Shown here in pieces: positions 41,165 to 64,000 of a stretch of DNA of 64,000 bases (positions within the stretch are counted from its first letter, which is position 1; each line of letters opens with the position of its first letter). Below the pieces are notes generated by a model. It saw nothing but the letters and a program-made list of their open reading frames with translations, did no database searches and was not told the origin of the DNA. Origin of the DNA: Spinacia oleracea (Eukaryota; Streptophyta; Magnoliopsida; Caryophyllales; Amaranthaceae); contig NC_079491.1 of NCBI RefSeq assembly GCF_020520425.1, positions 2,356,001 through 2,420,000 of the forward strand, in the 5' to 3' direction. A program made the translations under genes and the position numbers.

Positions 41165-41321
41165 GATAAATGTGACCCTAATCAATGAAAAATGCGACCC
41201 TAACAATAAACAATGAAGTGACCATGATCAAAAGTGATATGCTTGTTACAAGTTATAACTATGACCAATACAACACTAACAATGAAAATATACATCAATA
41301 CACAAGTGTAATATAGGTAGT

Positions 41322-41392
41322 AGGCTACGTGGAGCTTGACCCCACACCATGTACAATATTGTACATTGCTCTACCATTTGAGCTAATATCCT
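41322..41392 (-). other. tRNA-like sequence 1 (decayed)
   Basis: On the minus strand this reads TAGCTCAAATGGTAGAGC (D arm), then ATGTACAATATTGTACAT (a self-complementary stem in place of the anticodon arm), then a T arm around GTCAAGC. The acceptor strands (AGGATAT and GTAGCCT) pair only partly. It is the most decayed of the full-length copies in this window. Confidence 0.6.
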
Positions 41393-43123: not shown

Positions 43124-45537
43124 GGGGAGGGATCATGTGAAAATACCTCCTTATGTGAGTATACTAATATATATGAGAATGAATCTAATCCATAGGATTA
43201 GATTCAATCTAATGGCTAGGATTAAATAAGAAAACCCATCCAACTTCCAATTAAAACCAATCACTTTTTCATTAAACCCACGTAACTTTCTCTCTCCAGA
43301 CCCTCCTCTTCACTCTTTCCCTCTCACGCGATTTTGAACTCCCTGTTATCCCCTCAATTTTCTCTCTCCTCTGAAGAAAACCGCCATCGCAGCCTCCAAA
43401 ACGGCAAATCCGCTCCGTCGTCGCAACTCCAATTTTTGATTTAAGGTAAATTCGAGTTCAATTGTTCTTCATTTCTTCTCGCCTTCTACAATTTTTCCTA
43501 ATTTTAACCTAATATTTTCAATTGAAGATGATTGGAGTAGAAAAACAATACGAACGACTAAGGTAAGCAAATTTGTAGCCTAATTTCGAATTCGTTGTTT
43601 TTAACATTTATTGAAGATAATTTTTGTTAAATTTTGATTTTCAGCAAAAACAAACACAACAAACCAGCAAAAAATCCAGACGATACTGAAGAGTAAGAAT
43701 TCGGTGGTTTAATTGTAGCGAAATTTATTTATTAATTTCGAAATTTTTGTAATTATTTTCGGAAATTTTCAAAATTTATTTTTGTAATTATTTGGTTTGC
43801 AAATATTTGGATGTTTCTAGCGATTTTGAAATTTTTATATTCCTTATATTTGATGTTTGATGCAATTATAGATGTTCTGAATTTTATGAATTTTTAGTAT
43901 TTTTAATTAGAATTTAATTTGTGATTTTTTGAATTGTTTTTAGAATTGAGAATTTTAAGATATTTTCGTCATTTTAAGATATTTTTTGAATGTTCTGAAC
44001 GACTTCATGAATAATTTAGAGTAATATTTTATACTCTCAATACTTTAGAACATGAAGCTTAAGAATCTAGAACATCATAAATCACTGTGTAGAACATCAT
44101 AAATCACTGTGTAGAACATCATAATTGCATATGTTCTAATTACAAGTGCACATGTTCTGAATTTGAAAGCTATCTAGTGAAATTAATTATATGTTGTCTT
44201 ATCTGACGTTTGACAGTTTTACTAGTTGATATTATCTGCTTCCATCTATTAGTTTAGGTGTTTGAGTTTCCCTGATGGTATGTTCCTATGTTGATATTAC
44301 ATTGTTCACGTGTTGTTGGTTTGGTTTGTAGTTCCATGCCTTAAGTTGTTTTGACAGGTTTAAGAATCAATGTGAATATGTGATATGTTCATCTTCACTT
44401 ACTTATTGTTCACTTCCCGAGATTCTTATCAAACTAAACTGATTATTACTGATTCCTATTGACTAAATTTGTATTAGAGCTCGAGTCGTTTTTCCTGGTG
44501 TATCAAAGTGTGTTTAGGTGTGAATTTGATCACTATGTTTTGAATTTGACAGTTGCTCCAGAGGTAAAGATAAATGTATCATAGAATTTGTGAACCTTTG
44601 TAGGGATAATATGTGCGATGGCAGTTTGATTATTTTGGTGCAAAATGTAGAACCCAGAGGGCAAGTTGCCTAATTTTCTGGTTGATGATTGATGATTCAT
44701 GAGTGCAGTCCCATAATATATTCTTGAAGTGTCTCCAACTTTGAGTAGTTTATCCTTGGTTTTCAACCTTCCCAAGCTTGCTAAACATGATTTGAAACCA
44801 ACTTTCTAAGTGAAATTGAGCCGGCCAACTCTCATCTATGTGCTTATATTATATTTCAACATTAAGAATTCAGAAACAAGTCATAATCCATATAACTGGT
44901 GCCTTTGAGCTCCTTCCTTGATATCTTTTTCAGAATTCTCTATTTGAGCGAGCTACATTACCCCTGATGTGCTTTTTGTTCAAATTCGCTAAATTTCAGA
45001 TTCCTCTTCCCGTCTCTGCAGTAGACAGACAATTCCAACAAATTATAAGTAATTGACATCTACTTATCTACGCATAAAAATTCAGAATGGGAAGTGTCAA
45101 CACAGTCCGTTAGTTGCCCACCTGCCTCAATGTGTTCAATCTGTAGAGGTTTCTGCCCTTAATTAGAAGGAGATTGTCATTTTCAATGTTTTCATGTGTT
45201 GTTGTTACGTTGTTCCTATATTGTTGTTTTGGTTTGTAGTTCCATGCCTTAAGTTGTTTTGCCAAGTTTAATCCAAAATAAAATCTCTCAAATATAAAAT
45301 TATATCTCTCTAATATCTCTAAACATCATATCTTAGAACATACAGATTAACTGCTTAGAACATGTAGCTTAACTGTTAGAACATATAGGAATAATGTACA
45401 GAACATATAGCTTCACTTGTTAGAACATATATACATTGTTTATAACAGAACTAAATTTGTTTCATGCGATGCAGGGTAATCGAAACTCACAACAATAGAG
45501 AACTGAAGCTAACCTCAATGAAGAAACCGATGTTAAT
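43124..45537 (+). other. Left arm of element A: leader, introns, AGAACAT motifs
   Basis: The CT-rich leader (43270-43440) is followed by possible short exons at about 43528-43561 (GACTAAG|GTAAGC) and about 43645-43692. AGAACAT or its inverse occurs repeatedly at 44040-44165 and 45330-45440, including a tandem AGAACATCATAAATCACTGT pair at 44066-44112. No long reading frame is present. Confidence 0.5.
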
Positions 45538-45762
45538 GTGAACAAAGAACAAGAGGAAGTGAATAAGAAACATAACAAACTAAGGAAACATGTTGCAAAG
45601 AGGAAAGAGAGTACAAAAATTGTTGTTAGAGATGTCAAGAAGCACAAGTCTATAGTTGAGGTGCGTTCGGGGTCACAAGACTGCGTAAAAGTGGATAACA
45701 ATTCAAGGTCGGTGAAGAAGAAGAAGGAAAGACTTTTGATCCAAAGAATACCAGCAAATTGG
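45496..45762 (+). pseudogene. Element A protein, 5' part (Lys-rich), split by copia
   Basis: A frame rich in Lys, Glu and Val (NKEQEEVNKKHNKLRKHVAK and so on) runs up to the copia insertion point, where the inserted LTR provides a TGA. The frame continues without a shift on the other side of the copia element after one copy of the duplicated ATTGG. The lysine-rich start would be compatible with a nuclear protein. Confidence 0.6.
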
Positions 45763-47095
45763 TGAAGGAAATAATGCCCTTGGTCCAAGTATGCATTCTA
45801 TGTTAAGTCTAATAAATGCGGTTCAGTATTAATTAACAAGTTAATAATTCAGTGAGATCAAGTGAGCTGAATGCCTAGCTAGAGGCCGCTTCAGTTCAAG
45901 TGGAATTAATGATATTAATCCACAGCTTACTCTTGACTGAACCCGTAGGGTCACACAAATAGTACGTAAACGGATCAAGTATTTAATGGTATTAAATACT
46001 CCATCTATGAATATTCGGAACCGACGGATCTTGGTTTCAGTGGGAGCTAAGATCGTCACAGGCAAGAAATGAATACTCCGGAAACGATGATATTGCCGGA
46101 AACGGAAATATGGATCGTATCGGAAATATAAATATTATCCAAGTCGTAGATGTTGCCGGAAACGGAAACATGGTACGTATCGGAAAATATTATTGGAAAT
46201 GGAAATATTGCCAGAATCGGAAATATTGCCGGAAACGGAAATATTGTCAGAATCGGAAATATTACCGGAATCGGAAAATAATTCCGAAAACGGAAATATT
46301 AAATATTTGTTCGAAACGGAAATTAATTCCGGAATCGGAAATATTAAATATTGTTCGTATCGGAAATGAATTCCGGAATCGAAAAATTTAATCGGAAGCG
46401 CATCGTACGAATAAGCATTGGACGAGGCCTGCCGGACGAGGCCCAGCACGAAGCCAGGCCCTCGCCCAGCAAACCAAGCGCGCCGCACAAACAGCGCGCA
46501 CAGCGTGCGCTGCGTGGGCTGCTGCTCGCGCGCACGCATGGGGGCCCATCGTGGCTGCCGTGCGTGTGTGTGCAAGTGTTTGTGTTCGTGCACGTTTCCT
46601 AAAACATGCAGAGTTCGGTTAATGATTAAATTCTAATTCTAATTGATAAATTAATTAAATTAGAGTTCTTGTAGAATTCTAGGTTTAATTAATTTGTATC
46701 TGAATAGGATTTCGATTCCCTTTCCATACCCCTATAAATATGAGGCTAGGGCTCACAATTTATAACAAGTTTCAAAGTATTCAAAGTGAGTTTTTGAGAG
46801 AAAAATTCAGTCACACATTTGCCTATAAAGTGCCGAAAATAATAGTACCTTAAGGGCGATTCTAGTTGGTCAATCTTAAGGCGGATCCGGACGTGCTGTG
46901 GACTATCTACGGAGGGACGACACTTGGAGTCCTAAAGACTTGTTCTTGTTCGGTTCGGGCGCAGCTAGGGAAGGCACGCAACAAAGAGTATGCATCTAAA
47001 TTATGCTATATGATTATGTGTAAATAATATGTTGTCCTGGGTTAATGGTTGTTTCCGCATGATCTATGTAATGTCATATGTATCATAACCTAACA
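45763..47095 (+). mobile_element. Copia 5' LTR, 1333 bp
   Basis: It starts TGAAGGAAATAATGCCC and ends CCTAACA. Inside are a cluster of GGAAATATTGCCGGAA-type short repeats (46085-46390), a GC-rich block (46425-46600), a probable TATA box (CTATAAATATGAGG at about 46731) and a conserved stretch after it, which probably holds the transcript start. Confidence 0.95.
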
Positions 47096-47096
47096 G

Positions 47097-47110
47097 TGGT
47101 ATCACGAGCC
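47097..47110 (+). other. Primer binding site, tRNA-iMet type
   Basis: TGGTATCACGAGCC begins two bases after the LTR end. The usual copia primer site is TGGTATCAGAGCC, complementary to initiator tRNA-Met. Here one extra base (CACGAG for CAGAG) interrupts the match. Confidence 0.85.
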
Positions 47111-49866
47111 CCTTATTATTTTCATAATCTAAATTGCATGAACATGGTTAAATATTACAAATTTGCAAGAATTAAAAGGGGTGATTAATTTTCGTAATTG
47201 TTAATTAATTGCAAATTGCGTTTATTTAATTATACGTACGCAGTTTTTCGTCAGTTTCTTCGTTACTCATCCGAATTGAGTGATTTTTGTGTCAATTCCG
47301 CATGTAAAAGGCATTCTAAAATTTTGACAAAAATAGTATTTTTCTGCCGAACCCAGAATTCTCAAATTCGAAGCTTAACTATGACTTTTCGAAGGTTTTA
47401 GTTTTTCGAATGCAAAATTTCGTAAATTTAAGATGTTAAATTAAATATTTGCGATTCTTGTTGATAAATCTTGAATTTTTGATTGACCTACTGCATATGT
47501 TTAACAAGTTTGAATGCCTAGTCTTGTTAATTATGCAATCTAATTTGTAATTATGATTAATTTGTTGAAAATTAGAATAATTTAGAATTAATTTGATTTT
47601 CATAATTAATTGTAATTTAATTAGAAACCTATGATTAAAAACCACCATAAAAATTGTAAATTTATGATAAATTTTAAATTTTTATGACCTAGACTTGAAT
47701 CCATAACAATCGGAAATCAATTGGATAATAAATTTTCGATTTTTCGCCCTAAAATTATGAAATTAATATTATTTATTAATTTGTCATTAATTTTAAATAT
47801 AAATTTTAAATTTTTATGCGATTCGTTCATAAAACTTGCACGCACGAAGCAATGGACGCTTCGTGTTACCCTTAAGGGGTGTTGTATAATGCGGGCATGC
47901 GACGACGAGCAAGGGAGCTCGTCGCCCGTGCGGCACGAATGCAATGAGCAAAGGCGTAGTGCACGAGCACAAGGCAGCAGCCCTGCCTTGTGTCGTGTGC
48001 CACGAGCGATGGACGAATGGGCATGGGCGAAGGGCGAGCCAAGGCAGTCGCGTGTGGGCAGCAAGCGAGCTGCGCCACAACGCGCGCTGCCTCGCGCAAG
48101 AGCGCGCAGCGAGCGCAAGCTCGCGTGCCACGAGCGCTGCGCCCAGCATTGCTCGCGCGCACAGCGAGCGAGGGCTCATGCGCACAGCGAGCAATTGCTC
48201 GCGCGCACAGCGAGCGGTGCAACGCGCGCAGCGAGCGCTGGCGAGCGCGCATTGCGAGCGAAAGCTCGCATGCGATGAGCGCTGGCGCGCGCAGGGAGCA
48301 CCAATGCGTGCGGAGGCTTGCGATGGATGCAGCAGCTATGCGACGAGCGCATGGGCTGCGCGCACATGGCCAGCAATGGCTGTGTGCGTGCGGCCCATGG
48401 GCGTGCAATGCGTAGGGTGTTTGCGTTACGATTAGATCGTTTTGAATGTTTAATTTGAAAATTTCAATTCGCGTAATTTTAATTAATTTTAAAATTAATA
48501 ATTTAAATTATTTTCTTGGATTTTAATTTTGAATATTATAATTATAATAAATGTTATTTATTCTAATTATTTTACTAAAATTAAAATCATGAATTAATTT
48601 AAATAACGACTGAAATTAAATCAAACTTTTTGGATTCAATTATAAATTTATATGAGCTTTAAATTTTAATTAAATTTGTATGTTTCCGGTTAGACTAGAA
48701 ATACATTTTTATGTTTAAAATTAGTAAAGCATATGAATTTATTGGTTTAAGTGGGAGCGCTTTTTAGTCATAAACTCTTGATTAGGTCTACAAATCCTTA
48801 AGGTTAAAACAACTTGATTAGAATTAATAAGGACTGAATAATTGGTAGATTATTGGTGCCCTTGATTAATTGCTGCAAATGTTTACGTGATGCATAATGT
48901 GTTTTACTAACCAGCTATGTGGGCCATTCATGATAATGAATGGGTGAATGGTATATATTGTATATGTACTGTTTTGCAGGTTATGAAGTGACTAGTATGG
49001 CCCAAATAGGATAGAAAATATGGTCTGCGTACCATTAATTTGAATGTAATTGGTCTAAAGTACCAAAGTTATTTTTCAATTCAAATATGGTCTGCGTACC
49101 ATCAAATAGTTGTAATTAGTTATAGCTTATCCTATTTGAAGAAAATGGTGCCTCCCACGGAGATTTTCAAGACGGACTTTGAAGTCAAAGCTTCAAGATG
49201 AAGTCGGGCCATACTAGATCACATTTATCTTATGCATGCTTTAAGTTATTTATTGTTTTAAATATGTCTTAAAATGCATGAGATCAAAAGCTTGATTATG
49301 TTGCATGATTAAGGATTTTAGTTCACTTAAAATCTAACCAACATAGTAAGAGCCTTAAGTTCCAAACTTAAAAATTGAGTTAAAAGGTGCCATGCCAAAA
49401 TATACACTTGCTTGGATATCCTTTACATCAATCTAGTAATAGTTTTCGCTCAGCGAGGTGTTATTTATTGGTCCTAAAGGGGCAAGGTACACAAATAATT
49501 GTGAGTACATGTTAGTTTTGGTGAAACTCAACGATATAAGTAAGGAGTCCTTTTATGTCGTGGCAAATTCGATAGGTTTACCTAATAAGTTCTTAGACGT
49601 ACCTATCAACCAAGAATAGTTTCTAGACTATTAGCAAAAGGCTTTTGCTTACCTAAGATGTTCTAGGATTAAGTCGACAAACTGTGCTTAGTTCTTCAAT
49701 GATTTTAGGATCTTGGAATCATTTTATTCACACCTGCCGGAACACATAACTTGAATAAAATGCTTAATAAACATTGAATTATGCATGTATGCTAGAATTT
49801 AAGTTTATTAAGAGAAACTGTGAATGGTTATTTATTTGTTTATTCTTTTCAATTGTAGTTTTTAAT
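47111..49866 (+). other. Copia leader of 2.7 kb with GC-rich island
   Basis: The stretch between primer site and gag is unusually long. It is AT-rich except for an island at about 47880-48415 made of GCGCACAGCGAGC-type words, very close to the GC block in the LTR. Long frames in the island on both strands are composition effects. The 3' part (48760-49800) is AT-rich with no recognised frame. Confidence 0.6.
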
Positions 49867-52800
49867 ATGGCAAACAACAATTCATTCAACATTCGATCAA
49901 TTCTCGAAAAGGAGAAGTTGAACGGGAAAAACTTCCTTGACTGGCAAAGGAACTTGCAAATAGTTCTTATGCAGGAAGAAAAGGAGTATGTCCTGGATGA
50001 GGCGATGCCCGAAGCTGCAGGCGACGGGGTCACTCAGGCAGCCCTCAATCGTTGGATTGATGCCAACAAGGATGTGAAATGTCTAATGCTCGCCACCATG
50101 AGTGCGGATCTGCAGAAAACGTTCATCAACTCAGATGCTTTCACAATCATCAGTGAGTTGAAGAACATGTTCCAAGATCTGGCTCGAGTCGAAAGATTCG
50201 AGACTCATAGGCAAATTCTTGAGACCAAGCTTAAGAAAGGCGAGCCCGTAAGTCCACATGTTCTCAAAATGATTGGACTCATTGAGAATATGAGTCGGCT
50301 GGATCAGCAATTTTCTCAGGAAATGGCTATAGACACCATCCTCCATTCTCTTCATAGCGGGTATGATCAGTTCAAACTGAACTACAGTATGAATAGTCTG
50401 GACAAAACGCTCACTGAGCTTCACGGTATGCTGAAGACCGCTGAAAAGACGCTCAAAAGTGATAAGCAGGATGTGCTTATGGTGCGTGGGGGCAAGTTCA
50501 AGAAATCTGGAAAGAAGAGGAATGCTAAGAAAGGTGGCAACAAGGCCAGCCCAACTAAGCAAACTGGCGCCAAATCTGCAAAGAGGAAGGTCAGTCAACC
50601 CACTTCTGAATCCGAATGCTTCTACTGCAAGAAGAAGGGGCATTGGAAGAGAGATTGCTTGAAGCTAAAGGAAGATCAGAAGAACGGAACAGTCGTTCCA
50701 TCTTCAGGTATTTTCGTTATAGACTGTATACTTGCTAATTCAACTTCTTGGGTATTAGATACAGGTTGTGGCTCACACTTATGTTCCAATCCACAGGGAC
50801 TAAGAAGAAGTAGAAAGTTAAGCAAGGGTGAAGTCGACCTACGAGTGGGAAATGGAGCACGGATTGCTGCATTAGCTGTAGGAACTTACTATTTGTCGTT
50901 GCCCTCCGGGCTAGTTTTGGAACTGGAAGAATGTTTCCATGTTCCAAGTCTTACTAAAAACATCATTTCAGTTTCTTGCTTAGATGCCAAGGGATTTTCC
51001 TTTATAATAAAAGACAATAGTTGTTCGTTTTATTTTAAAGAGATGTTTTATGGATCTGCTAGATTAGTCAATGGACTTTATTTATTAGATCACGACAAAC
51101 AAGTATATAACATAAATACCAAAAGGGCCAAAAAGGATGATTCAGATCTCACCTATCTGTGGCATTGTCGATTAGGCCATATAAACTTGAAACGCTTAGA
51201 AAGACTTCAAAAGGAAGGAATTCTAGAGCCATTTGACTTAGAGGATTATGGTAAATGCGAATCATGTTTACTTGGCAAAATGACAAAGCAACCTTTCTCT
51301 AAAGTTGGAGAAAGAGCAAATGAACTATTGGGTTTAATCCATACAGATGTATGTGGACCAATGAGTACAAATGCTAGAGGTGGTTTCAGCTACTTTATCA
51401 CTTTCACTGATGACTTCAGTAGGTATGGTTATGTCTACCTAATGAAGCATAAGTCTGAATCCTTTGACAAATTCAAGGAATTTCAGAGTGAAGTAGAGAA
51501 TCAATTAGGCAAGAAGATTAAGGCACTGCGGTCTGATAGAGGCGGTGAATATCTGAGCTATGAATTTGATGACCATCTGAAAGAATGTGGAATTCGATCA
51601 GAATTGACTCCTCCTGGAACACCACAATGGAACGGTGTGTCAGAACGGAGGAACAGAACCTTGCTAGACATGGTCAGGTCAATGATGGGTCAGGCCGAAC
51701 TTCCATTAGAATTTTGGGGACATGCACTAAATACAGCTGCACTCACTATAAATAGAGCTCCGTCTAAAGCTGTCGAAAAGACTCCATACGACTTATGGTT
51801 TGGAAAGCCTCCAAATGTGTCTTTTCTTAAGATTTGGGGATGTGAAGTATACGTCAAACGATTAATTTCAGACAAACTTCATCCAAAATCTGACAAATGT
51901 ATCCTTGTGGGTTATCCAAAGGAAACAAAGGGGTATTACTTCTACAATACATCTGAGAACAAAGTGTTTGTTGCTCGAGATGGTGTCTTTTTGGAGAAGG
52001 ATCACATTTCCAAAATGACAAGTGGGAGAAAAGTAGACCTCGAAGAAATTCGAGTCGAACAACAAACTCTAGAGAATGCTCAAGATGACATTCAGGATGA
52101 AACTCAGAGATCTTTAGAAGAATCTGGTGAGAATCATGGTCAATCTAGAAATGTTACCCCGCGTAGATCGCAAAGATATAGATCTCAACCGGAAAGGTAC
52201 TTAGGTATTTTGACGAACGAGAGCTATGACGTTCTATTACTTGAAAGTGATGAACCTGCGACTTACAAGCAAGCTATGACGAGCCCTAGCTCCAAGCAGT
52301 GGCAAGAAGCCATGCAATCTGAATTAGACTCCATGTCTGAAAACCAAGTATGGGATTTGGTCGATTTGCCAGATGGCTACCAAGCCATTGGAAGCAAATG
52401 GGTTTTCAAACTGAAAAAGGACAAGGATGGGAAACTTGAAGTTTTCAAAGCTAGATTGGTTGCAAAAGGTTACAGGCAAGTCCACGGTGTGGATTACGAT
52501 GAAACCTTTTCACCAGTTGCAATGCTAAAGTCTATTCGGATAATGTTAGCAATCGCTGCATATTACGATTACGAAATATGGCAGATGGATGTCAAAACTG
52601 CTTTCTTAAACGGCGTTTTAACAGAAACTGTGTTTATGACACAGCCTGAAGGTTTTGAGGATCCAAAGAATGCTAAAAAGGTATGCAAGCTAAAGAAGTC
52701 AATCTACGGATTGAAGCAGGCATCCAGGAGCTGGAATATACGTTTTGATGAAGCAGTCAGTGACTTTGGTTTCATCAAGAACGCAGACGAATCTTGTGTA

Positions 52801-53833
52801 TACAAGAAGGTCAGTGGGAGCAAAATTGCTTTCCTAGTATTATATGTCGACGACATATTACTTATCGGAAATGACATTCCTATGTTGAACTCTGTCAAGA
52901 TTTGGCTTGGGAAATGTTTTTTCGATGAAAGATCTAGGAGAAGCACAGTACATATTGGGCATCAAGATTTACAGAGATAGATCTAAAAGGATGATTGGAC
53001 TTAGTCAAAGCACTTATATCAATAAGGTGCTTGATAGGTTCAAGATGGCGGACTCCAAGCGAGGCTACCTACCCATGTCTCATGGAATGACTCTAAGCAA
53101 GACTCAGTGCCCAAAAACACTTGATGAGCGTAGACGAATGAATGGGATTCCATATGCATCATTGATTGGTTCAATAATGTATGCTATGATATGTACACGC
53201 CCGGATGTTGCGTACGCACTCAGTGCTACGAGCAGATACCAGTCAGACCCAGGAGAGGCGCATTGGACTGCTGCCAAGAACATTCTGAAGTACCTGAAAA
53301 GGCACAAAGATGACTTCCTGGTCTATGGTGGAGATGATGAATTAATTGTTAAAGGCTATACGGACGCAAGTTTCCAAACCGACAAAGATGATTTCAGATC
53401 ACAGTCTGGGTTTGTCTTCTGCCTCAACGGAGGAGCAGTAAGCTGGAAAAGTGCTAAGCAAAGCACCATTGCGGATTCTACAACTGAAGCGGAGTACATT
53501 GCTGCACATGAAGCAGCAAAGGAAGCTATATGGCTAAGGAAGTTCATAGGAGAACTTGGTGTAGTCCCCTCCATTAAAGGACCAATAGCCCTGTATTGTG
53601 ATAATAACGGAGCTATTGCACAGGCAAAAGAGCCTAGACACCACCAGAGAGTCAAGCATGTACTTCGTAGATTTCACCTTCTACGAGAGTTCGTTGAAAG
53701 AAAGGAAGTCGAGATAAGCAAAATTGGAACTGATGACAACATATCAGATCCATTAACTAAACCTCTGCCGCAGGCGAAGCACAACTCGCACACTGCAGCT
53801 ATGGGAATCAAGCATATTGGGGAATGGCTTTGA
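49867..53833 (+). pseudogene. Copia gag-pol polyprotein, one frameshift
   Basis: The start ATG at 49867 (MANNNSFNIRSILEKEKL) was chosen because gag homology begins there; an upstream in-frame ATG at 49774 adds 31 residues of unlikely sequence. Order by residue from 49867: gag; CCHC knuckle CFYCKKKGHWKRDC near 249; protease LDTGCGSHLCSN near 296; pre-integrase zinc region HCRLGHINLKRL near 432; integrase with HTDVCGPM (491), SDRGGEY (555) and NGVSERRNR (588); reverse transcriptase with FKARLVAKGYRQ (861) and YVDD (about 992); RNase H with YTDASF, TEAEYIAAHEA and CDNNGAIA. A one-base insertion in the GGGAAATGTTTTTT stretch (52908-52922) shifts the frame just after YVDD. The second part, to 53833, reads on in the other frame. 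All catalytic motifs are otherwise intact. Confidence 0.95.
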
Positions 53834-54697
53834 TGTCTCTGTTTAATGTTTTAAAGTTTTAGAGTTTAAATCTTTGAAAAACATTATTGGTTAATCATTC
53901 ACAATAAATGAAATGAATTCATTTTTCCATTTAATTTGTGGTTTATTAAATGATGAGTCCCTTCAATTTGACAATATATTCAAGATAGACTGTCAGGACC
54001 AGTCCTGTGACTAAGAAATGTCTATCAAGTGAACTTGAATGTCAAAGGTTGAAAATGGTCCCTAGTCGGAGTTTTCTATAAAATTGGACGCATAGAAAAC
54101 GTTAGACGATTAGAATGCAAGATGACTAGTAGTTCTGTTTCTTGAACTATGTGGACATGGCAATGTCATAATCATTTGCATAGATACTTACTTTGGGAAG
54201 ACTAGTATCGGACAAGACCTATGAAACTTTACTGTAAGAGATGAAAGTCTGTCATAAGTAAATTTCATTAAGTTATTAGACACTAAATCCTCAATACCTG
54301 AGTGATTTGAGATTACTTGTTTGAGAACTGATTGCTTTGACGTTGACCAACCGTCGCACCGTAAAAGGAGGCTATAAAGGCAACGCTCAGGTAATCACCT
54401 ATCAAACGAAGTCTAATCTCAAGATCGCAAGATTGGGATTGTCCTCCCATAAATCGGGATGAGATGCTTAAAAGTTGTACAAGGCCACTCGGAGAGCTAG
54501 AAACTGTGAAATGCATGGCCGTGCTCGGATGAATCATAGGCTATGATTATCTGTTTATTTGATCAGTTGAACTCTGAAACCGAGGAACACCTCTGGACGT
54601 AATAAGGATGACAACTCTTACCTTATGTTCAAGAGCAAGCATCGAGCGACAAAGGAATTAGGAAATGCACACTTGTCCCTAAGGACAAGTGGGAGAC
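53834..54697 (+). other. Copia 3' untranslated region and polypurine tract
   Basis: AT-rich 3' region ending in AAGGACAAGTGGGAGAC directly before the 3' LTR. The GTGGGAGA part is the likely polypurine tract. No frame of note. Confidence 0.8.
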
Positions 54698-56074
54698 TGA
54701 AGGAAATAATGCCCTTGGTCCAAGTATGCATTCTATGTTAAGTCTAATAAATGCGGTTCAGTATTAATTAACAAGTTAATAATTCAGTGAGATCAAGTGA
54801 GCTGAATGCCTAGCTAGAGGCCGCTTCAGTTCAAGTGGAATTAATGATATTAATCCACAGCTTACTCTTGACTGAACCCGTAGGGTCACACAAATAGTAC
54901 GTAAACGGATCAAGTATTTAATGGTATTAAATACTCCATCTATGAATATTCGGAACCGACGGATCTTGGTTTCAGTGGGAGCTAAGATCGTCACAGGCAA
55001 GAAATGAATACTCCGGAAACGATGATATTGCCGGAAACGGAAATATGGATCGTATCGGAAATATAAATATTATCCAAGTCGTAGATGTTGCCGGAAACGG
55101 AAACATGGTACGTATCGGAAAATATTATTGGAAATGGAAATATTGCCAGAATCGGAAATATTGCCGGAAACGGAAATATTGTCAGAATCGGAAATATTAC
55201 CGGAATCGGAAAATAATTCCGGAAACGGAAATATTAAATATTTGTTCGAAACGGAAATTAATTCCGGAATCGGAAATATTAAATATTGTTCGTATCGGAA
55301 ATGAATTCCGGAATCGGAAAATTTAATCGGAAGCGCATCGTACGAATAAGCATCGGACGAGGCCTGCCGGACGAGGCCCAGCACGAAGCCAGGCCCTCGC
55401 CCAGCAAACCAAGCGCGCCGCACAAACAGCGCGCACAGCGTGCGCAGCGCGCACAGCGCGCGCAAGCACGCGCAGCGCGCGCGGGCGCTGCGTGGGCTGC
55501 TGCTCGCGCGCACGCATGGGGGCCCATCGTGGCTGTCGTGCGTGTGTGTGCAAGTGTTTGTGTTCGTGCACGTTTCCTAAAACATGCAGAGTTCGGTTAA
55601 TGATTAAATTCCTAATTCTAATTGATAAATTAATTAAATTAGAGTTCTTGTAGAATTCTAGGTTTAATTAATTTGTATCTGAATAGGATTTCGATTCCCT
55701 TTCCATACCCCTATAAATATGAGGCTAGGGCTCACAATTTATAACAAGTTTCAAAGTATTCAAAGTGAGTTTTTGAGAGAAAAATTCAGTCACACATTTG
55801 CCTATAAAGTGCCGAAAATAATAGTACCTTAAGGGCGATTCTAGTTGGTCAATCTTAAGGCGGATCCGGACGTGCTGTGGACTATCTACGGAGGGACGAC
55901 ACTTGGAGTCCTAAAGACTTGTTCTTGTTCGGTTCGGGCGCAGCTAGGGAAGGCACGCAACAAAGAGTATGCATCTAAATTATGCTATATGATTATGTGT
56001 AAATAATATGTTGTCCTGGGTTAATGGTTGTTTCCGCATGATCTATGTAATGTCATATGTATCATAACCTAACA
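54698..56074 (+). mobile_element. Copia 3' LTR, 1377 bp
   Basis: Nearly identical to the 5' LTR. The main difference is about 43 extra bases of GCGCACAGCGCGC-type repeat at about 55440-55490. Confidence 0.95.
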
Positions 56075-56319
56075 ATTGGTTCATGGCACTTATTCCTAAA
56101 ATTCCCAGACAACACATAGCTGCCATTAGGAAGATAGGCTTTGGTGCCTTCCTTGATTTGCATATTGGTGCCCATAAGTCAAAGTTTTCTGTTGAACTTG
56201 TAACAAGCTTAGACACCAACAGAGTTACTTTGGTCATGTATAGCAAAGAAGAAATAGATATTGAGTTGGATGACATACACCTTGTCTTATGTTCTAAACT
56301 AGCATTGCATATGTTCTGA
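56075..56319 (+). pseudogene. Element A protein, 3' part, Ulp1/C48-associated type
   Basis: This continues the frame cut at 45762. It contains IPRQHIAAIRKIGFGAFLDL, FSVELVTSLDTNRVTLVM and EIDIELDDIHLVL. That pattern is the N-terminal domain found in plant transposon-borne proteins that often carry a C-terminal Ulp1-like (C48) cysteine protease, as in many Mutator-like elements. Here it stops soon after, with no protease domain, so the protein was truncated even before the copia insertion or uses a splice site not recognised. Confidence 0.6.
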
Positions 56320-56474
56320 ATTAACATTGCATATGTTCTAAACTAATGTTGCTTATGCTATAAATTAACATTGCTTATGTTCTAAAGGTTTACATGTGTG
56401 TTTTGGGCTTCCATTTTTGTTTCTTTACATAACTATTTGTCAACAATGAATAACTTGTTTGAATATTTTTTTAA

Positions 56475-56545
56475 AACCTATTAGCTCAAATGGTAGAGCA
56501 ATGTGCCATTGCACATGGATGTAGGTTCAAATCCTACATAGGTTG
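56475..56545 (+). other. tRNA-like sequence 2
   Basis: It folds as a cloverleaf. The acceptor AACCTAT / ATAGGTT is perfect over 7 bp, then TA. The D arm is GCTC-AAATGGTA-GAGC, and the T arm is GTAGG-TTCAAAT-CCTAC. In place of a 5-bp anticodon stem with a 7-base loop there is ATGTG-CCATTG-CACAT, in effect 6 bp with the 4-base loop CATT. No CCA is encoded, as normal for nuclear genes. Without a standard anticodon loop it is not an ordinary decoding tRNA. Confidence 0.8.
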
Positions 56546-56579
56546 TTCTATATAAGTTAAATACATTTAAAGCCTTTTC

Positions 56580-56788
56580 GTCCGTGTTCTAAAAAGTTAA
56601 GTCTCGTGTTCTAAATACTTTTTCATATGTTCAAGAATTTAAGAGAAATGATCATTCACATTTCAATAGTAATAATAATAATAGCTAGAGGAGTGGGGGG
56701 CCAGATTGTATCTCGGCTCCTCTCCAACTTCTTGTAGTTCACTTGATCTTTGTAGCTTGTTAAGCTTGTAACGTTTTGGTGTTTTTCC

Positions 56789-56864
<76 letters not shown>

Positions 56865-57060
56865 TCAATGTGTAATCTATTAACCTCTTTTATTTTAAAA
56901 GATGAAATATATATAATGAAATTCAATATTTTAAAATACGTGTTGCTTATGTTCTAAATGTTTGTGACTTCATGTTCTAAATACAAAAGCTAATGTTCCA
57001 AAAACTGATACTTATGTTCTAAATTAAATAGAACTGGTTCACAAAGTAAATAGAAGTGAT
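56580..57060. repeat. ATGTTCTAA motif array and (TAA)n
   Basis: ATGTTCTAA and variants recur from 56290 to 57060. A (TAA)n microsatellite lies at about 56788-56858. The motif is the same as in the left arm of element A, as expected of subterminal protein-binding sites. Confidence 0.7.
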
Positions 57061-57116
57061 TCAAAAGTAAAGAATCATCAAATACGAGTTAATGCCATAA
57101 ACGGAATACAAAGAAT

Positions 57117-57186
57117 TACCTATGTAGGATTCGAACCTACATCATTGTGCAAGCGCACAAAGATCTACCAATTGAGCTAATAGGCA
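57117..57186 (-). other. tRNA-like sequence 3
   Basis: On the minus strand: acceptor TGCCTAT / ATAGGTA (7 bp with one G-T pair), D arm GCTC-AATTGGTA-GATC, central arm TTGTG-CGCTTG-CACAA (6 bp with loop GCTT), and T arm GTAGG-TTCGAAT-CCTAC. It faces copy 2 at a distance of about 570 bp. Confidence 0.8.
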
Positions 57187-59175
57187 TCACTTGACCAACA
57201 AACTTACAGCAGCAGAAGGCCAACATCAACAACAATAAGAATCAACTAGGCAGAAAGTCATCATCACTGGTCTCAGTTGACAAAGCACAACAATAAGGTC
57301 TTACCTCGTCTTCCTTGCATCCCCCAAAAAGCTTATTATACGATTCTTCTGTTGGAAATCTATGATAATGTCAAATAGGAGCATAAAGATATGCAATTCT
57401 ACGAGAGATAAAATAACTAAAGGCCAACCTTATGGGGCTGCTTGATTTTTTTCTAGCAAAACCAGACCTTCGGGTTGCTGCCTGTGGCCCTGTGCTACCA
57501 GATACGATTTGATGGCTGACACGTGACTTCTCTTCTTCCTGCTTTTCTGCATTGGGGTCAAAGTTGCTGATTTGTATCAAGTAAAGCATTTAGACAATTG
57601 ATAAGCCATTGTTAATCTTGATCAATATCAATCATGTTCCCATTGAAATTCACCTCCAGCAAATTGTTCATAAACCATTTCAACAGTAACAAAAAGTCAT
57701 ATGTTCTAAAAAGCCATAGAAAATGTTCTAAAAAACCATAGCAAATGTTCTAAAAGCCATAGAAAATGTTATAAACCTTAACCCATATGTTCTGAAAACC
57801 ATAGCAAATGTTCTAAAACTCAAATCATATGTTTTAAAACTTTAACCATATGTTCGAAAAATATGGAAAATGCTCTATAAACCAAAAATATGCATCAAAA
57901 GATTTTTTTTTTACGAACGATTACAGACATATAAGATATTTATGCAACTAGTATGGCTGCATGAGGATTCATATTCTAATCTCGTTGTAACAACTAGTAT
58001 GGGTGCATGAGGATTCATAATCTAATCCGATAGAACATTATGTTAAACTTTCAGAACATGTAAAGCAATAATTCAGAATATCAAAAACAATGTCACATGA
58101 AAATAGAAACAACTATACAAAAAACTAGAATCAAGTATTCAAAACAAAAATACTATCACTCGGAACATTAATTGGAACGATTATTCAGAACATGTAATGC
58201 AATCATTCAGAACATGAAGAACCATTTCTCAGAAAAATGAGAGAAAATATACAGAAAACTGGAAACAACTGTACAGAACATAAATCACTATTATTCAGAA
58301 CATTTAAAACGATTATTCAGAACATTACATATAAGACACATTAATAAGAAAACTCACTGGATTTCGTCAATGATGACGTCGGACTAGGATGAAGTTCTGA
58401 TGACATTGTTAAATCTGTAAATAAGAATTTGAACACAGAAATTAAAATACGAACTAAGCAGAACAATTCGATAATAAAAAAATATAAACAACAACAAATC
58501 CAAAAATCAAAAAAATAAATCAAAAAAAATTAGGAAATCAAAAAACTAAATCAAAAACAAATCAGGAAATCAAAACTAAATCAAAAAATCAAAAGAAAAA
58601 TAGATCAATAACAAAATCAGAATTCAGTAATCAAAAACAAATTTAAAAACACAGCTCAATAATCACGTAATCAACAAAATTTTAAAGCGCAAATCGACAA
58701 TTTAATAATCACGTAATCAGCAAAATTTAAAAAGGTAGCTAAATCATCACGCAATAAGCAATTAGATAATCAACAATTCAATAATTTTGATAAAAAGAAT
58801 AATTACGGATCAGATGTAAAATTAGGTCGAAAATCAGCAAATAATAATTTAAATATGAAAAACAAAATTGCGAAACTGATAAAATACCTTTAAATAAGCA
58901 ATTAGATGAATGTATTCGAGAATATGATTGAATTCTAAAGAAAATTTGAAGATCAAATCGACCTTGATTGAGGTCCTACAATGGCGGCATGGTGAAGAGA
59001 GAGAAGAGAGAAAACAAGGAGAAAGGAGAGTTTAGAGAGAGAAAGAAATCAGCGTGAGAAGGAAAAAAAATCAGATGGGTATATATTCAAAGAATTTACA
59101 AAAATGCCATTAGTAATCCCTTGATTTTCAGCGGTTAGATTAGAAACGATCCAAAGGTCGAGAATTATTCTCATA
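57187..59175 (-). other. Right arm of element A, remains of a minus-strand gene
   Basis: Two exon-like pieces have good splice signals: 58406 down to 58358 (MSSELHPSPTSSLTKS, donor CCA|GTGAGT) and 57566 down to 57429 (NFDPNAEKQEEEKSRVSHQI, acceptor ATCAG, donor AAG|GTTGGC). They do not join in frame directly. AGAACAT motifs are dense at 57695-58330. A CT-rich leader (58980-59070, read on the minus strand) precedes the first piece. I do not recognise the protein. Confidence 0.4.
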
Positions 59176-60450
59176 CTCCCTCCGTCCCGGAATACTCGAC
59201 CCGGTTTGACCGGCACAGAGTTTAAGGGACTTGAATTGACTTATTTAATTTAATAGGTAGTAATTGATAGTGGGGTATTATTTTAAGGCAAAATTGTCAA
59301 AAAGTACCTTCTTTTTATCTCACTTTGTGAACTAGTACCTTATTTGTCCAGTTTTGTCAAATAATACCTTGAATTAAAAAGTTGCATTAAAAATGGCACC
59401 TTAGAGAAACAATCCGGCCAAATTGTCAACTTTCCGGCAATTGACTCATGCTTCCCTCCAAAATATTGTGCGTGTGAAACAAACAAACCAAAAAATCACG
59501 CGCCTCTCGAACTCTTTTAAGAAAAACACTACCAACCAACAATCTCATATCCATCTCAAGTTTTTTGCAGGAAAATAAACTGGTTTTTTTTGGTGGGAAC
59601 AACACTACCAACCAACAATATCATAAAAACAATACTAACAACCAGCAATCTCATAAGAACAACAATACCAACCAATAATCTCATATCCCACTCCTTCAGA
59701 GCTTCAGCAAAAGAGCTATTGGTAATCTGATTTCTCGGATGAAGGATCAGTCTATTTCTCGTGTTAAGGAGATTTTGCAAATGGAAATGTATTCTGGTTA
59801 TTACCTATCTGTTTGGAATCGTCTTTTGTTGAATCATGACAAGTTTATCAATATTGTGAAAGGAAAATCAGAATGAAAGAGATAAATTGTAGAGTTGAGG
59901 TTTTATTTTTAATGAAAATGGTGGTTGAGTGAAGTAATGAGAGCAGTGTAGTAAATGGGAAGAAGAAAGAGCGTTGGAATTCTCAACCAAAATTTTGAAT
60001 GTGGTTAATTGCTGAGAGAGTGTTCACACGCGTATTTTTCCCACTCAAAGTGTGCCAACAAACGGAGTAAATGGCCGGAAAGTTGACAATTTGGCCGGAT
60101 TGTTACTCTAAGGTGCCATTTTTAATACAGTTTTTTAATTCAAGGTACTATTTGACAAAACTGAACAAATAAGGTACTAGTTCACAAAGTGAGGTAAAAA
60201 GAAGGTACTTTTTGACAATTTTGCCTTATTTTAATGTAGTTAGTGGGAGGTGGGTTAAGAGGTGGGGTTGGGGAGAGTAGGGGTTGAATTTTTAATTATT
60301 TTTTGTATGGAGTAGGGGGTAGGTAGTTTAATAGGGGTGGAGTGAGAAATAATATAATATTGTTAGAATATTTCCATTTTTAGAAACAGGTCAAGTATTA
60401 AGGGACGGCCCGATAAGGAAAACAGGTTAAGTATTCCGGGACGGAGGGAG
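59176..60450. mobile_element. Stowaway-type MITE split by a nested element
   Basis: The outer parts (59176-59286 and 60226-60450) match the MITE at 8108-8433, including CTCCCTCCGTCCC and GGGACGGAGGGAG ends and flanking TA (59174-59175, 60451-60452). The centre is a later insertion. Confidence 0.92.
59287..60225. mobile_element. Non-autonomous MULE, 939 bp, 9-bp TSD
   Basis: Inverted ends of about 160 bp start GGCAAAATTGTCAAAAAGTA. The 9-bp duplication TTATTTTAA flanks it (59278-59286 and 60226-60234), which is diagnostic for Mutator-like elements. The core (59450-60060) has a tandem-like CAACACTACCAACCAACAAT repeat and no transposase. Confidence 0.95.
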
Positions 60451-62362
60451 TATAAGATTGTGTTCTCACATAGAAAGGGTGTTCTCACATGAGTCTTCCT
60501 CTCTCTATATATATATATATATATAATCGCGATCTGGTGAGAACCACCCCTTAAGATGAGAACTGAGAACTAATCTCAGCCCTCAATCAATCCAATCCAA
60601 TGATCCACATCTCACCCGATCAAATAAAAAAATAAGGGTAATGTGGTAATATCGCATTGTTGAATGACCTCCTCCCCTCAACCTGATTTTCAGATTTCTT
60701 TTCTCTCTCTTCCCCCGTTTTCTCTCTCCTCCTGCAAATTCCCTCTCCTCTGCGATTCACCTTCAACCGGTTCATAGCTTTGTACTTATTACATTCGCAT
60801 CTTCTCTCATTCATCAAGTTTTCGCAAAAGTAAGTAATTTTGTTTATTATCGTTTTATTATTTTCTGATTTTATTCAAGTGTTAGCGATGCTAATTGTTG
60901 AAATTAGGGTTTATAAATTTTTATTTTCCAGTATTTTCCGTTTTGTTTGCTCATATTAGGGTTTCAGTTAAGTTTTTGCGATTTGGTTTGCTAAAATTGG
61001 GGTTTATTCATTTCAGTTTTTTCGATTTTGATTGTTGAAATTAGGTGTTACAGTTTTGTATATGCAAGCTCTATTCGTTTTTGCAGTGCAGAGATGCTCG
61101 TCAATTAGATATTAACTGGGTGATCCTTGGTCAATCAGAGAGAAGACCCTATCAGATATTAACGGAGGAATTAGACTTTTGGTTTTAACTGGGTGATCCA
61201 GTTTGTTGATGTGATTTGGTAGTTTGGTGATCCAGTTTGTTGATGTGATTTGGTAGTTTGGTGCCATTTGCTCATTGATTTTGTACACCAAGGTGTTTAG
61301 CAGCATCAAATGGTTGATATACCTTTTTATCATCCAAGCTTCACGACTGTGCTGTGAACATCATTCTGACATCATTCTTGTTCTGGCATGTATATGGCAT
61401 CAACCTAGACTTCAACAATGCCAAAACTGTCATCATCTCAGCTTTTAAAGTGGAAAGCTTGTGACAGAACAAACTTCTGTAGAACTATCGGGACTTTGAA
61501 TGAACCGCAATGCAATTGCCAGACTGTTATGAAGTCATGAACATAAGTCATGAACATACTGCTTTAAAATGTAGTGTAACAGACTGTCAATCCTTCCTCC
61601 ACATCTCATCCAGGCTTCCTTTGTTAGCTTCTATTTTTGTGTTTACTTAAGATTAGTGCTTTTTTGTTCATGAAATACAAAAATACGATATGTTAGGCAT
61701 CCAAGGTTACAACTTACAAGTGTTGCTACAACTGAGCCCTTTTTGGGACTTTAGGTAACTGATCTTAGTAGTCTTCTCTTCTTAGCTGTTGAACTTAGGT
61801 GACTAGGAGGATTTGTTGTATCGTTTGGTTGCAATGATGGGTTATATGCGGTGGTTAGTCTGTTGTGCTAAGATAGGTTCCTGAATGATGAATTCGTTTT
61901 GTGGCCTCTGTTGGAGTTTCTTAGCATCACATCCTTTAAACCATCACAACTCACAAGGCTGCATACAACATATAAAGCAGACCTCTTTGTTATAGTGCAT
62001 GTAATAAATTTTCTTATTTGATTATCTTTACTTTTGAATCGAATATATTTACTTTTACGAGTCTTCTATCTACTTTTAAATTGAACAAAAGGAAAATATG
62101 TGAATGCATTCTAATTACTGAGCTAATTTGGCTGCTGCTTTATTGGACTAGGTTGCACCATGTTGCCTTCCCTAGATAACTTTGATATTGCTGATTGTTG
62201 TTAGTTGGTGCCAGTAGTTATTGGTTGTTTAATAAACAGAAATATGTTGGTTCCATTGCTTGGGATGGAAAAGGCGGGAGCGATGAGTGACATTCTAAGA
62301 AAAATGTAACGTTATTATAGTATTGATGGAATTCCTGATGTTGATCTTGTTTGGTTTTGCAG

Positions 62363-62543
62363 TAAGTCGGAATATGTAATCTAGAAACTGAAGGAGATGG
62401 GAAAGGTTTCAGATAAACACATTCTACTGATATGCAAGAAGTTCGATCAGCTGGATGCTGGCAGCTGTGGAAAAATTACACTAGCAGATCTTATGCACAA
62501 TCACCACCGGATTTATTTTAGTTATCAGTTGCTTTCAATCTAA
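62363..62543 (+). pseudogene. Two-pore K+ channel (TPK) last exon, captured
   Basis: After a TTTTGCAG acceptor the frame reads SEYVI, a TAG stop, then KLKEMGKVSDKHILLICKKF and DQLDAGSCGKITLADLMHNH, ending at TAA (62541-62543). This is the C-terminal EF-hand region of plant TPK channels, which respond to Ca2+ at the vacuolar membrane. Where TPKs usually have Tyr in YVIYKLKEMGK, this copy has the stop. Only this exon is present, inside a transposon, so it is a captured, dead fragment. Confidence 0.75.
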
Positions 62544-62825
62544 ATATTGGCAGAGTAATGTTATGTCGTAGGGCTCAGAAGGTGAAAGGTGTTGGTCTTT
62601 TATCTGTAAATACACACCAGCTGTTCTGCTTTATTTGGCTGCTGCTTTATATTCTGCATTTAGTTGTTCTGGTTCCTTCAGTCTCTAATCGATGATTACT
62701 TACTTTCAAATTATTTCTATTTACTTAAACAAGTTATATATCTACATTTTAAATTGAACAAAATGCAAAGTGTATGATAGTGTTAGACCTATTCGTATTG
62801 CATGGTAAGATACCAAGAAACCATT

Positions 62826-62896
62826 AGCCTACTAGCTCAATTGGTAGAGCATTGTGCAAATGCACAAAAGATGTGGGTTCGAATTCCACGTAGGTT
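62826..62896 (+). other. tRNA-like sequence 4
   Basis: Acceptor AGCCTAC / GTAGGTT (7 bp with one G-T pair), D arm GCTC-AATTGGTA-GAGC, central arm TTGTG-CAAATG-CACAA (6 bp with loop AAAT), and T arm GTGGG-TTCGAAT-TCCAC with a compensated terminal pair. It lies in element B. Confidence 0.8.
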
Positions 62897-62989
62897 CATC
62901 TTTACTTTTTATATTGTTTTATTTACTTTTAATGTGAAAACCTTTACTTTGAATTATTTCGATTTACTTTTTTTGGTTTTTACTTTACT

Positions 62990-63048
62990 TTATTTAACTC
63001 AATTGGTACAGGATCAAAAGACGTGAGTTTGAATCCCACATAGATTCA
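62990..63048 (+). other. tRNA-like sequence 5 (internal deletion)
   Basis: ACTCAATTGGTA and GTGAGTTTGAATCCCAC match the D arm and T arm of copy 4, but the central arm is lost and the acceptor is decayed. Confidence 0.5.
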
Positions 63049-63611
63049 TGTTTACTTTTGTATTATTTTATTTACTTTTAATTGAAAAACCTTTACTTTA
63101 ACCTATATACTTCAATAATCGGTGTTTTCTAGTTTTTTATTTTTATTTACTTTTAAGTTGAAAACCTTTACTTTGACAATCGACTATATATTTCTTTCTT
63201 ATAGTTTGTTTCATATTGTAGAGAGATGAAAGTCAATGACTATTTACTCTAGTTTGAACTATTTGATTGTAATAAGTTTTTGAGATTTTCTGATTTACTT
63301 CTAAGAATTTTAGTTTACTTTTGAGTTTAAATTATTTACTTTTGAGTTTTTTGTTTACTTTTTGAATACTTGTTATTAATAATGCAACGAAAGTCACATA
63401 TATTCATAAAGGTCTGACGTTTAATAGATCAGGTAGTAATAAGGGCAATCAACTTTGAACAGTTTGCATCACGCTTTCAATGAAATATTTTGATTTACTT
63501 TGGAATTTTTATGAGATACTTTTGAGTTATAGATTTACTTTTGAGATACTTTGATTTACTTTTGAGTTTCTTTTATTTACTTTTGAGTTTTTTTAATGAA
63601 CTTTTAGAGAA

Positions 63612-63682
63612 AACCTATGTAGGAATCGAACCTACATTCCCTATGCATTTGCATAGTGCTCTACCATTTGAGCTAATAGGTT
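63612..63682 (-). other. tRNA-like sequence 6
   Basis: On the minus strand: acceptor AACCTAT / ATAGGTT (perfect 7 bp), D arm GCTC-AAATGGTA-GAGC, central arm CTATG-CAAATG-CATAG (6 bp with loop AAAT), and T arm GTAGG-TTCGATT-CCTAC. It faces copy 4 at a distance of about 715 bp, as copy 3 faces copy 2. Confidence 0.8.
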
Positions 63683-64000
63683 TAAGAAAATCAATAAAAA
63701 TTTCAATCATGGCAAGAAGAGAAGAACAGGAAATGAGAGTTGAACAAATACTACTAATAATAACTTACAGAGTTACAGTTCAGTGGCAAATACTACTAAT
63801 AATAACCTGAAGACAAAGGGTAATGGTATTAGATCTCATCCATACATCAATTTCTTCCCATGAGGAGAGCTCCATGTCGGATGAAAGAAGAAGGAAAAAT
63901 ATCACTTTCAGCAATCAATTTAAATAAATGAAATAAAGAGAACAAATGCACACAAAGCTTTAACAAGTAAAGGCCACACAAAGCTTACATCACTGAAACT
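63683..64000. other. Non-genic end of the window
   Basis: AT-rich sequence within element B. A short tandem of AATACTACTAATAATAAC (63749 and 63788) is present. No gene recognised. Confidence 0.4.

Follow-up and report, generated by a model that had tools for sequence, protein, structure and literature searches.

The locus studied here, a window of 64,000 nucleotides of the spinach (Spinacia oleracea) genome (contig NC_079491.1, positions 2,356,001 to 2,420,000), raises the question of why DNA transposons should carry tRNA cloverleaves from which the anticodon is gone. A preliminary description had placed four intact copies of such tRNA-like structures (TLS) in this window, and all four, referred to here as A to D, were found again by ARAGORN, which calls them tRNA-???, by the Rfam tRNA model RF00005, in which they score as tRNA with 44.6-54.1 bits, and by R1, a covariance model built from these four copies, with scores of 91-98 bits that are high by construction. 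The unfiltered scan of the window with R1 also recovered both copies thought to be decayed, although the one at 41.3 kb (copy E) is less decayed than claimed and forms nearly all of its pairs. The central arm of A-D consists of a 6-bp stem and, as had been claimed, a 4-nt loop in place of the anticodon loop; the loop of copy E has 6 nt. According to the model-match coordinates, 570 nt separate A from B and 713 nt separate C from D. Table 1 gives an overview of the features.

Table 1. TLS copies and host elements in the window (R1, covariance model from copies A-D).
Feature	Position	Strand	Remarks
TLS copy A, class I	56475..56545	+	Rfam tRNA 54.1 bits; R1 94.6 bits
TLS copy B, class II	57116..57186	-	Rfam tRNA 44.6 bits; R1 90.9 bits
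TLS copy C, class II	62826..62897	+	Rfam tRNA 46.3 bits; R1 95.7 bits
TLS copy D, class I	63611..63682	-	Rfam tRNA 52.5 bits; R1 97.8 bits
Decayed class II-like second copy, tandem to C	62987..63047	+	R1 23.5 bits, E 0.0003
TLS copy E, resembling class I, in neither element 1 nor element 2, own element not delimited	41321..41392	-	R1 55.6 bits; 21/22 pairs
Element 1, DNA transposon, imperfect inverted ends in (TA)n	43124..60505	.	ends located; relatives L034, L036, L038
copia element interrupting element 1	45763..56074		TSD ATTGG
Element 2, Pack-type DNA transposon	60526..64000	.	C-end at 60526, right end about 65732, beyond window

In the five good window copies, 108 of the 110 stem pairs form and both sides have changed in 8 of the 22 pairs, while random substitutions in the stems of the same copies broke 20.9 pairs on average and never fewer than 11 (20,000 trials). 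A hairpin between A and B was also considered and is not favoured, because the differences between the two preserve each cloverleaf. No close tRNA ancestor of the TLS was found among 19 genuine tRNAs, the best of which scored 47 over some 72 positions.

The assignment of the copies to two transposons was right; element 1 is split by the copia element and element 2 extends past the window, its C-end being common to nine other loci. Inverted ends in TA microsatellites were located on both sides in eight elements, in addition to element 1, and the (TA)n masks the target site duplication, which is about 9-10 bp in TA-targeting MULEs. We reject the suggestion that the TLS are simply terminal repeats of small insertions, because they sit 1.3-2.9 kb inside the ends of DNA elements of 5.0-6.6 kb inserted in (TA)n. 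The cargo is mostly unrelated between elements that keep the TLS. Captured gene fragments were recognised by Pfam in three of ten ORFs scanned (NAF, Endonuclease_1 and RVT_3); the NAF fragment, in L039, lies antisense to the TLS and the other two lie between TLS copies. The RVT_3 cargo may derive from a repeat. Among ten frames of the window itself, Pfam gave three weak matches, the best being a sub-threshold DUF7699. The stretch at 56095-56316 (+), which resembles the N-terminus of a Ulp1-like protein, has no Pfam match, and the fragment at 62385-62540 (+), which resembles a TPK channel, has none either and reached only an E value of 0.67 in a PDB search. A short minus-strand open frame in element 1 stops 55 nt upstream of B. 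The host elements are of the Pack type and are probably relatives of the TA-targeting MULEs.

Beyond the window, an 18-mer from the D arm has 715 exact matches in the same assembly (894 Mb), compared with none for the control, and the TLS model fits all 50 genomic places examined. Exact searches with TLS patterns gave no match in viral contigs or in bacterial and archaeal genome contigs. The loop between the six stem columns, where an ordinary 7-nt anticodon loop would leave 5 nt, has 4 nt in 56 of 68 copies and 5 nt in a single one (L031:4252), whose stem is mismatched; a 7-base loop with an anticodon, as in a functional tRNA gene, is therefore not what most members carry. The central arm is missing from some copies, and the model matches include several without a full one (L032, 49 nt; L035:4567, 59 nt; L027, 65 nt; L090, 60 nt). 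The cloverleaf includes the tertiary residues of the D and T loops, those of the D arm being partly ascertained by the search pattern: T54, T55, C56, R57, A58 and T48 are each retained by 39-42 of the 42 copies parsed out of 49, five being set aside for length and two lacking the central stem from position 27.

Selection on the cloverleaf, proposed earlier from covariation in a few copies, is supported and extends to many. In an alignment of 68 copies, which was fitted to the model and so leans towards pairing, 96.7% of the 1408 stem cells are paired and both sides have changed in 10 of 22 pairs; shifted-pairing controls (slides) reached at most 50.6% and seven double-changed pairs. On the tree, 10 compensatory branches were counted, as opposed to one or two for the slides; random re-pairing gave 0.97 on average and never more than 5 (300 trials). 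Internal branches carry 12 pair-keeping and 5 pair-breaking changes, terminal branches 29 kept pairs and 38 breaks, the frequency of the latter indicating that many copies are decaying. The central loop is the fastest-changing part per column.

These terminal mismatches and the loss of the central arm in some copies are what would be expected if an ancient captured tRNA pair were carried along as functionless passengers. We consider this highly improbable, as compensatory changes occur on internal and terminal branches alike, the TLS are retained amid unrelated cargo, and they are conserved above the element ends, with identities of 0.92 and 0.91 versus 0.79 and 0.75 (L035 left out of the C comparison). 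In the border analysis of 38 of the 49 copies, weak and near-locus-edge copies being excluded, identity drops sharply at the 5' border of the TLS and also past its 3' side, where only B and D still have about 100 nt of flank partly in common.

A strand-specific wobble would be expected if RNA were the selected molecule. The raw cells contain 47 GT versus 19 AC, largely owing to one pair (2-103), and on the tree the bias is not significant (23 changes to GT, 19 to AC, p 0.32), which is compatible with a fold acting in DNA, where the transposase or an element protein would bind the cloverleaf in single-stranded or cruciform form. The retention of the pairs despite unrelated cargo would likewise suit such a cis-acting site. 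However, transposase sites are expected at the element ends rather than at the TLS, and tRNA enzymes read the very residues that are conserved in the elbow and the T loop, so that we regard the DNA fold as quite improbable.

The copies also have a fixed arrangement. Among 100 listed places, neighbours at most 3 kb apart were oriented +- in 14 cases and -- in one, never -+ or ++, and each of the 14 convergent neighbours joins the two sequence classes; a second set gave 11 of 11 convergent neighbours among the matches listed, two of which also occur in the first. All + copies lie to the left of the - copies in the 16 multi-copy loci among 24 loci. The pairing of class I with class II fails in L041, and in L031 and L042 a class call was not possible. 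In each of ten elements, the C-type TLS adjoins the C-end. When a tandem array of C-ends is taken as one count, an exact-match TLS lies no more than 6 kb away on the inward side for 14 of the 39 exact C-ends and on the outward side for one of 39, leaving 25 of 39 with none inward. The convergent pairing inside transposons reported for the window thus holds in many further members: the family carries an internal convergent TLS pair, usually of class I (A/D) with class II (B/C). The idea that the TLS are decayed descendants of a single nuclear tRNA in random places conflicts with this fixed arrangement and with the compensatory changes.

With very high confidence, we therefore describe a large plant DNA-transposon family with inverted ends in (TA)n, varied captured cargo and an internal convergent TLS pair, usually class I plus class II, in which the cloverleaf and the elbow residues are kept partly by compensation and the anticodon is gone. 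The family has thereby multiplied, hundreds of times over, a tRNA fold that is under selection although it has no decoding role. Its preservation without an anticodon suggests that the element uses the tRNA machinery for a job of its own.

One such job would be transcription of the TLS as Pol III genes for two small tRNA-shaped RNAs serving the element. Scored with our own patterns, the A box is present in 47 and the B box in 40 of 49 copies, and 15 of 18 class C copies have TTTT within 24 nt downstream. However, this T-run of class C belongs to a repeated TTTACTTTT motif, and in classes A, B and D the proportion is 8 of 31, which is close to background (0.20), as opposed to 15 of 19 among real tRNA genes (a subset of 63 listed genes). 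Of the Pol III signals proposed in the preliminary description, the boxes are therefore largely intact, whereas a terminator just downstream is common in class C but close to background in the other classes, and we consider Pol III genes unlikely. The retained boxes and the position of the convergent pair in mid-element could also reflect a chromatin boundary made by TFIIIC between the two arms, but boxes alone need no compensation in the acceptor and central stems, and this explanation appears very improbable. RNA processing or fold-based recognition is the preferred reading of the role of the TLS.

In the mechanism that we tentatively propose, the best of those considered although less likely than not, each TLS would be a strand-specific signal in the form of a tRNA fold that closes the transcript from its own end by RNase P/Z cleavage and thereby keeps convergent transcripts from overlapping. 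Transcription would enter from each element end, where MULEs are known to have promoters. Each inward transcript would meet its own TLS first in sense, where the RNA would fold as a tRNA and be cut by RNase P and/or tRNase Z, and the cut would end or trim the transcript before the opposite arm is reached. Read-through into that arm would yield double-stranded RNA and silencing, which cleavage would avert. Because antisense TLS score merely 15-23 bits with the model, each would act on one strand only; two convergent TLS would therefore be needed, and inversion of the centre would be harmless. The more far-reaching reading, that the pair are element-encoded strand-specific terminators which, as anticodon-less tRNA mimics, recruit host RNase P/Z, cut inward transcripts whatever the cargo and so prevent double-stranded RNA and silencing, is doubtful.

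Points counting against cleavage are the cargo that is not in sense, the wobble, the breaks on terminal branches, the C-ends without TLS, L041 and a knock-down result from plant mitochondria, where the available part of the source reports that a tRNA-like t-element did not respond to knock-down of RNase P (PMC4368725). The sense orientation from each end would also fit 3' tags that act without cleavage, through tRNA-binding proteins, and confer mobility, export or stability on the transcripts of the element or its cargo. Mobile mRNAs of plants are reported, in the part of the source available, to have an excess of tRNA-related sequences in their 3' UTRs, which speaks for such tags, although in one graft study cited there most TLS-bearing mRNAs were immobile and 11 of 174 moved (PMC8047152). 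On balance, 3' tags are rather unlikely.

A tRNA fold without a decoding role near transcript termini is known from the animal tRNA-like 3' processing signals of the mascRNA type. The same holds for the plant mitochondrial t-elements, as far as the excerpted source goes (PMC4368725). In contrast to both, the TLS described here occur in nuclear DNA transposons and in convergent pairs, and their function is putative. The TA-microsatellite-targeting MULEs MuTAnT (PMC4486113) and SaTar (PMC5907723) share with our elements imperfect inverted ends, (TA)n insertion, abutting arrays and non-autonomous members, but their main texts make no mention of tRNA. Autonomous TA-targeting MULEs have a mudrA-like transposase; among the 20 ORFs scanned with Pfam here, none was seen. 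Gene fragments as cargo are shared with Pack-MULE and Pack-TYPE elements, in the available portions of whose literature a conserved internal TLS pair was not found described. The tRNA-derived SINEs are likewise repeats related to tRNAs, including A and B boxes, but according to the part of the source available they retain these boxes as promoters while the cloverleaf is often lost (PMC8450103), whereas here the cloverleaf is kept, no tRNA head is fused to a long shared 3' body, and the copies lie inside DNA elements. Short one-orientation motifs recur in noncoding parts of our elements and of VANDAL elements with VANC-binding 9-mers alike; the text on the latter, in the portion available, is without tRNA (PMC5735166), and an anti-silencing gene such as theirs is not shown for our elements. 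Our literature searches found no report of convergent anticodon-less TLS pairs in transposons.

At the least, the family may account for a group of predicted tRNAs labelled "undetermined" in the spinach genome, and it offers a natural series of variants for probing the requirements of RNase P and tRNase Z. If the TLS do direct RNA cleavage, they would correspond, in the nucleus and on a transposon, to t-elements and mascRNA, and would provide a route past RNA silencing.

The four tRNA-like cloverleaves claimed for the window in the preliminary description are real: the tRNA-like structures (TLS) score 44.6–54.1 bits against the Rfam tRNA model and are labelled 'tRNA-???' by ARAGORN. A covariance model built from these four copies and run on the window matched a fifth good copy and a weak one (see table), and the five good copies together retain 108 of 110 stem pairs, as opposed to an average of 89 expected with an equal number of substitutions placed randomly. 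Four sequence types are distinguished, of which A and D form class I and B and C form class II. In the window's own assembly (894 Mb, 242 contigs), the D-arm pattern TAGCTCAAWTGGTAGAGC gave 715 exact matches and its reversed control none, and a central and T arm pattern for types C and D gave 295 matches, with a control of 0. The D-arm matches worked on were the first 100 listed of the 715; 50 of those (30 + 20) were examined, and all 50 matched the TLS model at whole length with E 1e-9 or better, which places the family far beyond the window. The central arm is wholly or partly gone in a few examined copies (loci L002/L032, L005, L027 and L090).

The covariation alignment contained 68 TLS copies, 65 of them distinct. 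Across it, 96.7% of stem cells are paired, compared with at most 50.6% in the slides, and double changes occur at 10 stem pairs (slides at most 7); one of 500 shuffles equalled this count and none of 500 equalled any of the other four measures. No pair of the D stem has a double change in the 68 copies, this arm being largely fixed by the search pattern, unlike the T loop and T48, which lie outside it. Using a FastTree topology and parsimony, compensatory changes were placed on 10 branches, as opposed to 1–2 in the slides; in 300 random re-pairings of the same columns the average was 0.97 and the highest count 5. Pair-keeping changes outnumber pair-breaking ones on internal branches (12 versus 5), and breaks are in surplus on terminal branches (38 versus 29 kept), the pattern that decay of inserted copies would produce. 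The highest change rate per column is found in the central loop and the lowest on internal branches in the D loop. The earlier proposal that covariation reflects selection on the fold is supported, and the sequence comparison indicates that the fold is selected and an anticodon is not, which makes a decoding role very unlikely. That the TLS are Pol III genes is a less likely reading: terminators are near background in three of the four TLS classes. Promoter boxes alone would not require covariation in the acceptor and central stems.

Convergent pairing likewise recurs in other family members. At least two TLS copies are present in 16 of the 24 loci sampled around TLS matches (L027–L050; L026 is the same site as L050), and in all 16 every plus-strand copy lies left of every minus-strand copy. 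Class I stands opposite class II in 13 of them; in the exception, L041, both copies belong to class II and are separated by 4 kb, and the copies of L031 and L042 are not classable as I or II. Among the 100 listed D-arm places on contig C1, neighbours less than 3 kb apart are convergent in 14 cases, tandem in one and divergent in none, and all 14 convergent pairs combine one AAATGG with one AATTGG. In the central/T-arm list (100 listed of 295; C1, C2 and part of C3), 11 of 11 neighbours are convergent, two pairs being common to both lists. A different arrangement was observed at C1:66718527-66737243, where seven class I matches lie on one strand at a spacing of about 3.1 kb; part of one element seems to have been turned into a tandem array.

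Both ends were located in eight elements (L036, L039, L040, L044, L046, L048, L049 and element 2 of the window, whose right end was found in L051), which measure about 5.0–6.6 kb and have (TA)n at their borders. TA-targeting MULEs and Pack-type elements are already known kinds, according to parts of PMC4486113 and PMC5907723. Spinach repeats were surveyed in PMC6337768, where, in the part of the text covered, 'tRNA' appears only in the PBS-prediction method and one reference (three uses). Literature searches on sequences resembling or derived from tRNA in MULEs or in plant transposons, and on neighbouring topics, gave no report of TLS in MULEs among the titles and abstract openings listed; as a sign of absence this is weak.

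Imperfect inverted repeats form the element ends, those of the C/D type beginning GGTGAGAACC. The C-type TLS adjoins the C-end in 10 of 10 elements (L030, L035, L039, L040, L044, L045, L046, L048, L049 and element 2). C/D-type elements are alike mainly at their ends (about 240 nt) and in the TLS with flanks, with a few interior stretches also in common, such as 500 nt with L035; relatives of element 1 have more in common, up to 1.1 kb with L036. The interior cargo is mostly unrelated between elements, and fragments of Pfam NAF, Endonuclease_1 and RVT_3 were found in 3 of 10 ORFs scanned from element interiors. Mean identity between elements is 0.92 for class II TLS (9 elements) and 0.91 for class I (7), above that of the C-ends (0.79) and D-ends (0.75). 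Identity drops sharply at the 5' border of the TLS, and about 100 nt on the 3' side are partly common in B and D. Near 39 exact C-ends (C1, C2 and part of C3, with TLS on C2 and C3 taken from the central/T-arm list alone), an exact-match TLS lies within 6 kb inward in 14 and outward in one. Four C-ends at C1:22220866-22228578, on one strand at a spacing of about 2.55 kb, form another tandem array with no exact-match TLS near.

In element 1, the A–B centre (56475-57186) is inverted relative to the ends when compared with L034, L036 and L038, the TLS pair still being convergent. The MITE in the window is presumably Stowaway-like, and the DUF7699-like stretch is possibly captured cargo. Nine-base motifs, TGTTCTRAA in element 1 and TTTACTTTT in element 2, occur mostly in one orientation and often at a spacing of about 21–22 bp; their arrays resemble the VANC-target motif arrays of VANDAL elements as presented in part of PMC5735166.

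Features of the window's elements and TLS copies
Feature	Position	Strand	Remarks
TLS copy	41321-41392	-	fifth good copy; match to model of four copies
TLS copy	62987-63047	+	weak; match to model of four copies
DUF7699 match	45113-45325	-	sub-threshold Pfam match; E 9.9e-05, 23.3 bits, cut-off 27
Copia element	45763-56074		inside element 1; LTRs ~95% identical, TSD ATTGG
MITE	59169-60457		second inverted-repeat insertion inside, arms 59277-59447 and 60065-60235
Nine-base motif array	56290-57809		element 1
Nine-base motif array	62027-63576		element 2

The acceptor-T stack and the elbow are recognised by RNase P, tRNase Z and other readers of the tRNA fold, and these are the parts preserved in the TLS. 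Mobility tags on RNA are a rather doubtful explanation, and action of the fold in DNA is quite improbable. A role in processing or termination of transcripts has points against it, namely the mixed orientation of the cargo, a wobble asymmetry between strands that is not significant, and C-ends without detectable TLS. It is suggested by the kept acceptor-T stack and elbow combined with the convergent arrangement, through which transcripts entering from each element end would meet a strand-specific TLS signal leading to processing or termination. As the most economical reading, we infer that the TLS would serve these elements as strand-specific processing or termination signals for transcripts from each end.
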